A stretch of DNA of 64,000 nucleotides from Petrotoga mexicana DSM 14811. Its GTDB lineage: Bacteria > Thermotogota > Thermotogae > Petrotogales > Petrotogaceae. The notes under the pieces are model-generated. The model was not told the DNA's origin. It made no database searches and saw only the letters and a program-made list of their open reading frames with translations. Shown here in pieces: positions 34,797 through 62,014 of this stretch. How positions within the stretch are numbered: the stretch's first letter is position 1; every line of letters begins with the position of its first letter. The translations under genes and the position numbers were made by a program. The DNA lies in NCBI RefSeq assembly GCF_002895565.1, contig NZ_AZRN01000032.1, positions 62,001 to 126,000 on the forward strand. The letters are read 5' to 3'.

Positions 34797-34873
34797 TTGA
34801 TATTTCAAAAAAGGATAGTATACTAACTATTAGTATGCTAATAGTTAGTAAGTTAATTATTAGCATACTAATA
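34797..34873 (+). promoter_or_regulatory. Promoter overlapped by two MarR-type operators
   Basis: TTGATA (34797-34802), 16 bp, TATACT (34819-34824). The -10 overlaps a perfect 13-bp inverted repeat (34821-34833 / 34838-34850, core TATTAG-TATG-CTAATA). A second palindrome, TATTAG-CATA-CTAATA, at 34858-34873 has the reverse-complement sequence of the first core, centred 30 bp away. The MarR regulator encoded downstream is the natural binder, giving autorepression of the exporter operon. The leader to the marR start would be about 235 nt. Confidence 0.65.
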
Positions 34874-34907
34874 GAAGATTGACGCAGCCTTTGAGACTAT
34901 AGATCTT

Positions 34908-45102: not shown

Positions 45103-47610
45103 TTAATACACAACGATTGTTGTTGAATAAGTGGATGGAATTGCTCCTTCTGATCTTGCAGTTACTACAACCGCATAAGTACCAGGTTCTAATGTATTAA
45201 GCACGTCTCCAGGTATAGTTGCAACAAATGTTCCAGCTGTTTCTACTTCAGCCTTGAAAGTTTTTGGCCCTTCTGGTGTGATCAAAGAAACTTCCACGTC
45301 CCCTTGAGGAGCGGGGGAATATGTATCGTATGGGTAAAGAACCTCAGATACATAGATCGTAACTGGTAAGTCTAACCCTCTTATAGCAGCAAAAGCAAGA
45401 TTTATACTATCAACGTTCAGTCTGACGGTTTCAAAGTACTCATTCCAGTATCCGCGTTCGAATGGGTATCTCTCATCTCTAACAGCGGTTAATTCGACAA
45501 AACGTGCACTTGGATCATATTTTGTCATCTTGAAGGGACCATTCCCAATATAAGCATGATTGTATTCATTAACAAAATTAAGTGCAGTTTGATATCTTTC
45601 AACAGCCTCATCAGGTGTAATCATATCTTTAATGTAAATAGGTACGTACCTTTCATCTATCATCTTTTGTAGTTCCGCTTTAATATCGTTAACCGTTGCA
45701 GGCTCAAGTACATCCACTTCGTAGACGTTCCCACCTGCGGCTGTTGATGAGAACGTGTACTCTCTTCCTGATGCGCCTCCATGTTCAACCAATCTTGTTA
45801 AAGCTTCAACAATTTCCCAAGAAACACCTATTGGTTGTCCTGATTCAGAAACTGTCCAATCAGGGGCTCCCCAAGAAGCTAAGTACATATCATCAACTGG
45901 AAAGTTGTAATCAAACCATACGGTTATTGAACCATCTTTATTTACTTTTCTTGCAACCTCAACTTCTAATCCGGGCATTGCAGAAGCAGAGTAAGTTGCA
46001 TCGTACCTTGAGTCACCTTGTCCAGAATCAACTGAAAGGTCCCATGAATAGGATCGTTCATACATATAATCCACTAAGCTTTCAGAGAGCCCATGATTCC
46101 ACACACCGTATATTATGTCGTAAGTACAAACACTTATAGATGTAACGCCTGGTCCTACAGGTACCCATTTTTTACTGTCAGGATCAAATTTAATAGCATC
46201 CTCGGGGACCTTTATTAAACCAACCATTTCACCGTTTTCATCAATTTCAAATTTGGTGTCTAATGTATCCATCCTTGGAACAACTTTTGCAGGTGTAATA
46301 TCAGCTGAGGCTGGACTTTCAAACATACCGTAGTCGTACATATTGGAGGCAACGTTTATGGAATACACATCGTTGAATCCATCCGTTCCTACAGGGTCCC
46401 AAGCACCCATGAACAAAGATCCTTGGGCAGAGAATTGAGTGACCCTCAAAACTCGATCAACCGTATCAGCTGTTAAAATAGACCACTGATTCAATCCGTC
46501 TCCAAGTCCATAAACCATTCGTCTGTTGAATCGATCTTTGTTCGCAACATAGAAGTCTTCTTGGTAGGCCAGATATATTCTAACAGAATCTCTTATACCC
46601 AGTTCAGTTGCCCTCAGAATCATATCCCAATATTCTTCTTCTGTTGCAAAATTTCCTGAATAAACCTTTTGAGTTAGATCATCAATCTCATCTTGTTCAT
46701 AATTCCAAAATGTTGGCTCTTGACCTCCTGGCATATTAGCATACCAAGGTGCATACATTTGGGCAACAATATGGTGCCAGTACTTTCTCGTAGCACCCGC
46801 ACCCCAACCTTCTGTGTATATATGCCATTGTAGATCGGCGGGATCTGAGTAATAAGCGATATCCACTGCTGCATATCTGTCTAATTCTAATCTTTCAACC
46901 TTTATACCAGCTTTTTCAATTTGATCTGCTATGTATCTACCTGCTGGCAACCTTCCTGTAGGATCGTCTACACGAATTAAGAATTTCAACGTGACTGGTT
47001 GTCCATCGAAAGTCCACCATTGACCGTCTTTTACCAACCTTCCTTTATTTTCAGGCAAATTGGCAGCCTCATTCATAGCGTTCTCTATCATTTCAAAAGC
47101 TAGCTCTTGGTTACCTTCTGGTGTAAAACCCATATTTGCAGTTATATCAAGGTACGGTTGTGTACCCGGCTGTCCTGGGGTTGCCATCGTATACATTACT
47201 CCACCTGCACCTTGAAGAATCTCGTCGACTAAATACTGTCTATTAATTAGGAAGTTCATAGCAAACCTTACTTCTTGAATCGCCAACGGATTGAAATACT
47301 CCACACCGTCAACATTCACTGTATAGGGAGGCTCGTTTGGTATAGGATTGAGTAATAAAGACCAAGAACCTGATGGAATGTTGTAAATATCCAAGTTTTC
47401 AAGTACCGATTGAGGCAAAGAATTAATCACTGGAGCCCCAACACCGGTTAAAAAGACATCCACATTTCCAGCTGCGACATCTTGTATTGCGACATCTTGT
47501 TGCATTCTCACATCGAAATACACCTTATCCGGCATAGGTCCCTTTTCTGCTAAGGCAAAAGCAGAAATCAAAACAAAAGTAACCAACAAAAAAGTTGCTA
47601 CTTTCCTCAT
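45103..47610 (-). CDS. oppA: Large family-5 oligopeptide-binding protein OppA
   Basis: This protein has 835 residues; most family-5 binding proteins have 500-600. The signal peptide MRKVATFLLVTFVLISAFALA has no lipobox. Typical segments are VRFAMNFLINRQYLVDEIL and IADQIEKAGIKVERLELDRY, and late NEYNHAYIGNGPFKMTKYD. The last 85 or so residues (after LDLPVTIYVSEVL) look like an Ig-type strand domain, with GPKTFKAEVETAGTFVATIP. The first 44 codons are duplicated, nearly unchanged, at 48.9-49.05 kb on the other side of an IS110 remnant. Confidence 0.93.
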   Translation of the reverse strand: MRKVATFLLVTFVLISAFALAEKGPMPDKVYFDVRMQQDVAIQDVAAGNVDVFLTGVGAPVINSLPQSVLENLDIYNIPSGSWSLLLNPIPNEPPYTVNVDGVEYFNPLAIQEVRFAMNFLINRQYLVDEILQGAGGVMYTMATPGQPGTQPYLDITANMGFTPEGNQELAFEMIENAMNEAANLPENKGRLVKDGQWWTFDGQPVTLKFLIRVDDPTGRLPAGRYIADQIEKAGIKVERLELDRYAAVDIAYYSDPADLQWHIYTEGWGAGATRKYWHHIVAQMYAPWYANMPGGQEPTFWNYEQDEIDDLTQKVYSGNFATEEEYWDMILRATELGIRDSVRIYLAYQEDFYVANKDRFNRRMVYGLGDGLNQWSILTADTVDRVLRVTQFSAQGSLFMGAWDPVGTDGFNDVYSINVASNMYDYGMFESPASADITPAKVVPRMDTLDTKFEIDENGEMVGLIKVPEDAIKFDPDSKKWVPVGPGVTSISVCTYDIIYGVWNHGLSESLVDYMYERSYSWDLSVDSGQGDSRYDATYSASAMPGLEVEVARKVNKDGSITVWFDYNFPVDDMYLASWGAPDWTVSESGQPIGVSWEIVEALTRLVEHGGASGREYTFSSTAAGGNVYEVDVLEPATVNDIKAELQKMIDERYVPIYIKDMITPDEAVERYQTALNFVNEYNHAYIGNGPFKMTKYDPSARFVELTAVRDERYPFERGYWNEYFETVRLNVDSINLAFAAIRGLDLPVTIYVSEVLYPYDTYSPAPQGDVEVSLITPEGPKTFKAEVETAGTFVATIPGDVLNTLEPGTYAVVVTARSEGAIPSTYSTTIVVY

Positions 47611-47622
47611 AATACCCCTCCT
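47477..47622 (-). repeat. 146-bp duplication, copy in intact oppA
   Basis: This block, from the ribosome site through codon 44 of oppA, is repeated at 48914-49059 in the same orientation, offset 1437 bp, with two base differences (both synonymous) and no gaps. Confidence 0.95.
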
Positions 47623-47701
47623 CGTATAATATGTATAGTTATGAAACTTAAAAAATGGTATTAAAAATCTGTCTTTTGATCTTTTTTATTATTTCTTTTG
47701 T

Positions 47702-47936
47702 AAAGAGATGCCCTAATGCTAAAATAGTACCAGGATTATTAGCGACGGAAGATTCCTTCCCCCCCTGCAAGGCCTTTTGGCCGTTGCCTAAAAAGCTTGT
47801 TTCCTGACTTAGCAGTCAACTTGCTAACCGATTACTGCATCACCCTTGATTAGGCCATCAGCAAGGCTATTTTTCATTGGTGGATGCTCATAGAGCGCGA
47901 GGTTGCCTTTGGCTGCTAAGATTAGGGCATCTCTTT
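47702..47936 (+). ncRNA. Candidate IS110-type bridge RNA region
   Basis: This is a 235-bp non-coding stretch before the IS110 recombinase frame, closed by a perfect 16-bp inverted repeat (AAAGAGATGCCCTAAT at 47702-47717; its complement at 47921-47936). Inside are further hairpins: GCAAGGCC-TTTT-GGCC-GTTGC near 47767-47787 and TTAGCA/TGCTAA at 47809-47827. IS110-group elements carry a structured guide (bridge) RNA upstream of the transposase, which fits this position and size. The RNA ends and guide loops cannot be fixed by eye. Confidence 0.45.
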
Positions 47937-47977
47937 CTTTCATCCTTTATCTTTTTTCGAAAGGTGGTAAAATAACT

Positions 47978-48589
47978 ATGAATTACGACGTTTTATCTAC
48001 TTTGTTTGTCGGTATCGATGTGAGTTCTCTAACTAATACAGTTTGTGCAATTGATTTCCAAAACAATAAACTCCTTGATTTTGATACTAAAAATAACAGA
48101 ATAGGTGCTGAATACATTGCTGAGGCTATCTCCAATTGCCTTGTTTCTAACAACCTTGATTATGTCGTTATCGCTTTGGAAGCTACTTCTTTTTACAGTA
48201 CTCACATAGCCAATTTCCTGTCAACCAATAAGAAACTTTTGCCTTTTAAACCTCTTGTGTACCAGCTTAATCCAAAAACTACCGCCAATTACAAAAAGAC
48301 TTTTGTCGATATCGATAAAACAGATCATTTGGACGCTTACGTCATAGCCGATTTCGCTAGATGTGGCAAGATTTCTTCTTCCCCTTGGCGTGGTTCTCAG
48401 TTTTTGGCTTTACAAAGACTTACACGCCATAGGTTCCATTTAGTTCATACACTCGTTTCTGAAAAGAATTGGATGCTTTCCAACATTTATTTGAAATTCA
48501 GTGAATTGGCTGTGAATAATAGGGATAAGCCCTTTTCCGATATATATGGTGCTACATCTTGTGCTGCTTTGACTGAGTTCTATTCTTAA
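47978..48589 (+). pseudogene. IS110-family transposase, truncated
   Basis: About 203 codons from ATG 47978 (AAGGTGG upstream). The DEDD RuvC-like domain is complete: D in FVGIDVSSLT, E in VVIALEATSF, and the D pair in DIDKTDHLDAYVIADFA. The frame then stops after TSCAALTEFYS, where full-length IS110 proteins continue with about 200 residues including the catalytic Ser domain. The following 250 bp contain no recognisable remainder. The element is therefore inactive by itself. Confidence 0.85.
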
Positions 48590-48837
48590 CTTCTTTTCAA
48601 TCTCATGATAATTTGGCTAAACTCGTAGAACTGACTTGGAGAAAACGCTAATCAGGCAATTATTCCTTTTTTCTTTTTTTCAAGTCTATTTTGTGTTTTG
48701 CTGAAAGTATGGGGACTGTCAGTTACGCTAATTTTTAACAATTTTTTTGATTTTTACAACTTGACATATCACCGATTAGCTTTATCAAGTACCACATAAA
48801 CTATTTTCATGGTACAGCCTGAGAAAATTGCCAAATT
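48590..48837. other. Non-coding tail of the IS110 remnant
   Basis: AT-rich sequence with stop codons in all frames, T-runs, and no recognisable gene. It joins the broken transposase to the duplicated oppA start; the right end of the insertion sequence should lie here, but I cannot place it. Confidence 0.4.
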
Positions 48838-49047
48838 TTAACAGTATGGACATTCGCCAGTTAGTACTGAATTACCGCCCCAATGGCACAAAATATTAGA
48901 ATTATCAATCACCACATCTTGTATTGCGACATCTTGTTGCATTCTCACATCGAAATACACCTTATCCGGCATAGGTCCCTTTTCTGCTAAGGCAAAAGCA
49001 GAAATCAAAACAAATGTAACCAACAAAAAAGTCGCTACTTTCCTCAT
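48838..49047 (-). pseudogene. Truncated oppA start (relic)
   Basis: The first 44-45 codons are identical in protein sequence to the intact OppA at 47610, including the signal peptide and ribosome site. The frame then runs into unrelated sequence and stops after 25 more codons (ends GECPYC). The strongest promoter nearby lies before this copy and not before the intact gene. Confidence 0.85.
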
Positions 49048-49059
49048 AATACCCCTCCT
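48914..49059 (-). repeat. 146-bp duplication, second copy
   Basis: This matches 47477-47622, 144 of 146 bases by eye. The match ends just past the ribosome site; the upstream sequences differ. Confidence 0.95.
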
Positions 49060-61984: not shown

Positions 61985-62014
61985 GGGGCTCCAGAATGGA
62001 GTCCTTTACTTTTC
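61985..62014 (+). terminator. Terminator after the guanylyltransferase gene
   Basis: GGGCTCC-AGAAT-GGAGTCC hairpin with a following TTTACTTTT. Confidence 0.55.

Follow-up and report, generated by a model that had tools for sequence, protein, structure and literature searches.

A probable bridge RNA of an IS110-group element in Petrotoga mexicana with guide letters for the Shine-Dalgarno sequence

Introduction

What is the strongly folded segment that precedes a shortened IS110 transposase gene in Petrotoga mexicana DSM 14811? A preliminary description of the locus had proposed a bridge RNA. We examined this proposal in the window (the whole 64,000-nucleotide stretch analysed, positions 62,001 to 126,000 of contig NZ_AZRN01000032.1) and in related genomes, relying on comparison between sequences for the structure, the guide matches, the insertion context and the empty sites. 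The segment at 47702-47936 is very probably the bridge RNA of an IS110-group element that is guided into CCTCCT|TT upstream of genes, the window copy being a non-autonomous remnant.

Results

An exact inverted repeat closes a strongly folding region

The region and its two arms are as follows.

47702-47936, plus strand: probable bridge RNA region, 235 nt, structured and conserved (alignment, fold, pair counts)
47702-47717, plus strand: 5' arm of the closing stem (inverted repeat; two-sided changes among its scored pairs)
47921-47936, plus strand: 3' arm of the closing stem (inverted repeat; pair counts)

The arms, AAAGAGATGCCCTAAT and ATTAGGGCATCTCTTT, are 100% complementary (16/16) across a spacer of 203 nt, and the perfect 16-bp repeat reported in front of the transposase gene thus proved exact. 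Perfect 16-bp repeats within 260 nt gave three matches at two places in the 64-kb window, the other place being 34827-34874 (two nested matches), and none across 30 dinucleotide (first-order) resamplings of the window. The preliminary description had also spoken of 235 bp without a reading frame; the enclosed, repeat-closed region itself stood, but short mechanical open reading frames do overlap it. When folded as RNA, the plus strand of the region reached -89.8 kcal/mol (z = -6.3), and none of 200 shuffles was equally stable. The minus strand gave z = -4.4, as is expected for an inverted repeat, so folding energy by itself cannot pick the strand. The inner end of the 5' arm bears ATGCTAAAAT (47716-47725), which by eye looks like an extended -10 element and has similar words in distant relatives; a second, internal promoter is possible there.

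Relatives conserve the structure with compensatory changes

In a similarity search, the region was present in 6 of 41 genomes (its own plus 40 relatives). A genome contig collection yielded 15 further loci, from Clostridia-type MAGs and one Thermotogota MAG, and among 391 genomes of the class of one such relative, 18 had a match, some of them distant. No relative was found in a viral contig collection, and an Rfam search of the region gave no match at E values up to 1. In Firmicutes relatives, namely, L133 (683-740) and L131 (1084-1145), a hairpin followed by a T-rich run lies just inside the left end; judged by eye it is terminator-like, and it possibly blocks read-through from the flank.

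Twenty-three chosen sequences (22 distinct) were aligned over 249 columns and scored on the 22 distinct rows. The consensus structure has 52 pairs, 23 of which are changed on both sides in some sequence, and its cells are paired at 96.1%, versus 32 to 45% for slid structures. The covariation score was 0.264 versus 0.151 in shuffles, with none of 500 shuffles as high, the related rows not being independent of one another; further pair types did not rise above shuffles (184/500). Within the closing helix, two-sided changes occurred in 8 of 13 scored pairs, which indicates that the stem first noticed as an inverted repeat is not a chance match but is maintained through pairing of its bases, most simply at the RNA level. 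The conserved secondary structure expected of an IS110 bridge RNA was therefore found. The preliminary description had asked for a comparison with the 5' region of relatives; these, an intact one included, have the same region and inverted repeat. The window copy carries private changes in the stretch preceding its guide.

The RNA region lies within an internally deleted element with a putative split promoter

The functional unit turned out to be larger than the 235 bp initially singled out, and extends from 47623 as far as the core at 48780-48781. Its parts and flank are listed here.

47623-48779, plus strand: IS110-group element, internally deleted copy (end scan, alignment to an intact relative, G004)
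47625-47630, plus strand: TATAAT in the left end, putative -10 half of a split promoter, 17 nt from the right-end TTGAC[A/T] once the ends are joined
47978-48589, plus strand: truncated IS110 transposase, 203 aa, RuvC-like domain only (open reading frame list, Pfam, NCBIfam, alignment)
48761-48781, plus strand: right end TTGACATATCACCGATTAGCT, with the putative -35 half of the split promoter, the left donor and the core CT
48914-49059, no strand assigned: repeat of 47477-47622 (146 bp, 98.6%), start of the substrate-binding-protein gene, beyond the element (alignment)

The limits of the element, with CT cores at 47621-47622 and 48780-48781, were derived by applying the end rule of the near relative in genome G004. 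That copy is inserted between a left target ending in CT and a right target; it has CT at both ends, and comparison of filled and empty sites revealed no target duplication beyond the core dinucleotide. Its empty sites, in G002, G005, G000 and G001, have the form ..CCCCTCCT|TTTGA... The G004 transposase is an open frame of 424 aa in which PF01548 and PF02371 both score above cut-off, and it matches the NCBIfam model for IS110 family RNA-guided transposases (NF033542) with 218 bits versus a cut-off of 140. The intact relative thus possesses the DEDD (RuvC-like) plus Transposase_20 recombinase by which the IS110 group is recognised. In the window, DEDD_Tnp_IS110 (PF01548; 92 bits, cut-off 29) is the sole domain recognised, and deletions of roughly 340 and 260 bp relative to G004 have removed most of the second half, which bears out the earlier view that the transposase is truncated. 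Between the element's start at 47623 and the transposase ATG at 47978 lie 355 bp of non-coding DNA; that the longer non-coding end lies upstream of the recombinase assigns the element to the IS110 rather than the IS1111 type, as judged on the non-coding end.

With its transposase cut by two deletions, the window copy is at best movable in trans, and activity by itself is unlikely. The same genome holds, at the end of contig C31 and the start of contig C11, two halves of another copy, neither with an internal stop. If joined, as we infer, they probably form one full copy with an open transposase; the window element or its RNA could then be served in trans, and movement of the window copy by an intact one is possible. 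The term orphan guide, used earlier for this RNA, is therefore apt in that its own transposase is truncated, but less so in a genome with a probable full copy.

A 146-bp direct repeat lies on both sides of the element, and a 132-bp segment (48782-48913) between the element and the second copy matched nothing but itself in the six genomes searched. Before the same gene start, the element-free site reads CCCCTCCT|TT in G005 and G002 and TCCCTCCT|TT in G004. Native upstream DNA follows beyond the second gene-start copy of the repeat, which means that the window locus has been rearranged as well as invaded.

Joining right ends to left ends produced TTGAC[A/T]-N17-TATAAT for 37 of 38 right ends examined, the left ends being assumed to start CGTATAAT, from which a few vary; the exception is G002_C20, whose right end the pattern did not find. 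By sequence, a candidate promoter would hence be rebuilt over the joined ends, as expected for an IS110 bridge RNA.

Guide letters follow each element's own target and ends

The guides follow the order of a bridge RNA, with the left target guide between helices 3 and 4, the right target guide past helix 4, and then the donor guides.

47757-47766, plus strand: left target guide TTCCCCCCCT, with the core CT at its 3' end (own-versus-swapped test)
47767-47787, plus strand: hairpin of the target-binding loop between the left and right target guides (consensus helix 4)
47790-47795, plus strand: candidate right target guide AAAAAG, which would pair with CTTTTT (weaker own-versus-swapped test)
47827-47836, plus strand: left donor guide ACCGATTACT, matching the right end ACCGATTAGCT save for one skipped base before the core
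47893-47901, plus strand: right donor guide GAGCGCGAG, proposed partner of the left end CTCGTATAATA (by eye)

Guide boundaries were set by hand, and 35 elements were hand-listed. Across 30 elements, the left target guide matched its own left target at a mean of 6.63 of 10 positions versus 5.64 when targets were swapped, a value attained in none of 100,000 permutations; with one element per distinct guide (25), two of 100,000 permutations were as high, and with only positions 6-11 upstream, 274 of 100,000. In L125 and L167 the guide equals the element's own target at 10/10, and two of the 30 elements, L155 and L160, are exceptions with 2/10 each.

For the left donor guide, the match to the right end was 7.79 of 9 versus 4.76 swapped (0 of 100,000 permutations, 14 distinct ends, related rows not being independent), in a score that skips the donor base before the core by a rule adopted once the data were in view. 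Read contiguously, this guide gave no signal (3.71 versus 3.82), and that reading was rejected. The effect for the right target guide was weak (2.22 of 4 own versus 1.63 swapped; 43 of 20,000 permutations; 18 elements). By eye, the right donor guide sets CGAG, invariant in the alignment, against CTCG, followed by G-U and mismatches. Of the guides expected in a bridge RNA, then, the left target guide, the left donor guide with one skipped base and, weakly, the right target guide were recovered.

The window copy may be a dead fossil, whose RNA is not made and which no longer moves. We consider this rather probable: its transposase is down to the RuvC-like half, the promoter halves lie apart in the integrated state, private changes have arisen near the guide, and the duplicated flank points to further rearrangement. 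On the other hand, its ends, cores, donor guide, target guide and closing stem are all intact, and the probable full copy resides within the same genome. The bridge-RNA reading of 47702-47936 is well supported by the comparisons.

The target is the complement of the Shine-Dalgarno sequence

47614-47622, minus strand: left target ACCCCTCCT, ending in the core CT; Shine-Dalgarno sequence of the substrate-binding-protein gene, complement of AGGAGGGGT (empty sites)

The target, CCTCCT|TT, corresponds to a Shine-Dalgarno sequence on the opposite strand. A gene start lies just beyond the left junction in 37 of 43 hand-listed insertions, always in the same orientation, some of the 43 junctions being possibly orthologous rather than independent (e.g., two before 441-aa frames). 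The script counted a gene start where a start codon lay 7 to 21 nt from the core and opened a frame of 60 codons or more; where the frame was still open at the edge of the sequence, 25 codons sufficed. This rule held for 36 of 41 insertions evaluated, and of two re-evaluated, L134 has a gene start and the other has not; the six without one are L124, L131, L155, L160, L166 and G001_739. As background, 11% of the CT sites in the window satisfied the rule, and among its C-rich CT sites the share was 20%. Where AGGAGG is present, it remains beside the gene after insertion.

Insertion at gene starts could be a by-product of choosing C-rich targets in an A+T-rich genome, with no selection for the site. 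The share of sites near gene starts is indeed nearly doubled for C-rich CT sites relative to all CT sites, but the observed proportion of insertions is far above that C-rich background, and the guide resembling Shine-Dalgarno persists across Thermotogota and Clostridia-type genomes. We thus regard the by-product explanation as unlikely, while C-rich target choice may still have been the origin of the gene-start habit. The comparisons between elements support Shine-Dalgarno targeting by the guide.

Some relatives are cut at their own guide

Several left-end fragments end inside the RNA. In L070 the element breaks off at its own guide's core CT and native flank follows (uninterrupted sites in G005, G000, G004 and G001), and L076 is arranged likewise, the first base past the core being C there and T in empty sites; what remains of both is a 5' stub. 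At L066 the guide core is joined to an IS1634-like transposase frame (read by eye), and L071/L060 stops in or next to the guide, with repeated flank on its right; given these right sides, the two loci do not prove a deletion model. Other fragments stop elsewhere, so these elements decay in several ways, of which a cut at the guide core is one. We also considered whether the short left-end stubs might be distinct small elements, each with its own right end, but disfavour this reading, since two of them have uninterrupted native right flanks past the guide core.

The IS1634-like frame of L066 (1533-2540, minus strand) runs into the left end, with a junction sequence, CTCGTATTC, similar to the left end of the element itself, CTCGTATAAT. 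Further short derivatives (L004, L072, L080/L054 and L053) have the left end and little or no RNA region; an end scan found a right end as well in L054 and L053 (454 and 896 bp), which suggests that these two are non-autonomous copies.

The truncated relatives hint that the recombinase took guide DNA for target, which we propose without proof. Tentatively, and with some doubt, we suggest that left-guide DNA, a copy of half its target, served as target in L070 and L076, and that the guide RNA might also pair with mRNA: since its target guide is similar to the anti-Shine-Dalgarno end of 16S rRNA, it might bind Shine-Dalgarno sequences in messages, that of its own transposase included. If true, guide self-targeting would be a built-in route of self-destruction for these elements.

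Discussion

Taken together, the conserved structure with compensatory changes and the guides that follow each element's own target and ends support the bridge-RNA reading put forward in the preliminary description. It is very improbable that the hairpin holds no guide and serves instead as a cis-acting leader (attenuator or translational control) for the transposase: it does lie just upstream of the transposase start, with its 3' arm ending 22 nt short of the GAAAGGTGG motif that precedes the ATG, but a leader gives no reason for loop letters to follow the same element's donor end and insertion site, and leader and guide roles could coexist.

For a bridge RNA, we infer transcription, RNP formation and catalysis as follows. 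In an active element, the two ends would join in a circle, and TTGACA of the right end with TATAAT of the left end would form a consensus promoter for the RNA and then the transposase. With the long closing stem as its base, the RNA would form one part that binds the target, made up of left guide, hairpin and right guide, and another that binds the donor. Its donor guides would read the joined ends, and its target guides the C-rich CCTCCT|TT. As this is the complement of the Shine-Dalgarno motif, entry would occur just upstream of genes, in one orientation, leaving AGGAGG beside the start codon. The recombinase of an intact relative would insert into the CCTCCTTT target, and the window copy, having kept ends, cores and RNA, would be a remnant that an intact copy might move.

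With a Shine-Dalgarno guide, a single short RNA would have many places to land next to gene starts, always in the one orientation that preserves AGGAGG. These elements also provide naturally occurring guide-target pairs on which bridge-RNA rules such as the skipped donor base, the closing stem and the proposed self-targeting can be tested.

Among known systems, ISEc21 of the IS110 type has a non-coding region upstream of tnp that yields a short seekRNA matching both target strands (PMC11187229). In what that account describes, the RNA region lies upstream of the transposase, as in the window element, whereas target and sequence differ. The IS621 bridge RNA stems from the 5' non-coding end and consists of a target-binding and then a donor-binding part, each with left and right guides; its element has a CT core and a promoter rebuilt across the joined ends (PMC11208160, PMC11208158). 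As far as those descriptions go, the window element is alike in RNA position, part order, paired guides, CT core and rebuilt promoter. It is unlike IS621 in that a long closing stem holds the entire RNA, the region has 235 nt where the IS621 numbering given there ends at 177, and the left donor guide skips the donor base before the core. The targets differ too, being the Shine-Dalgarno sequence here and REP sequences for IS621.

Literature searches that left most subscription journals outside their scope met no account of such targeting, as far as seen, for IS110 with Shine-Dalgarno terms and nothing for IS900 with ribosome-binding terms, and we claim no absence in print. IS900, an IS110-family element of M. 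avium subsp. paratuberculosis, has the target motif CATGNNNNNNTCTCCTT (PMC8141618). It resembles the window element, in the features described, in inserting at translation-initiation signals. Doran et al. in 1997 reportedly connected IS900 with such signals. Given the IS900 precedent, targeting of translation-initiation signals by the IS110 family is already known, and this older observation can now be tied to a mechanism, namely, a guide that would spell the Shine-Dalgarno complement. Unlike IS900 as described in PMC8141618, whose passages on the element mention no guide RNA, the elements studied here, from Thermotogota and Clostridia-type genomes, have identified guide letters for the Shine-Dalgarno sequence, and it is this pairing of target and matching guide that looks new.
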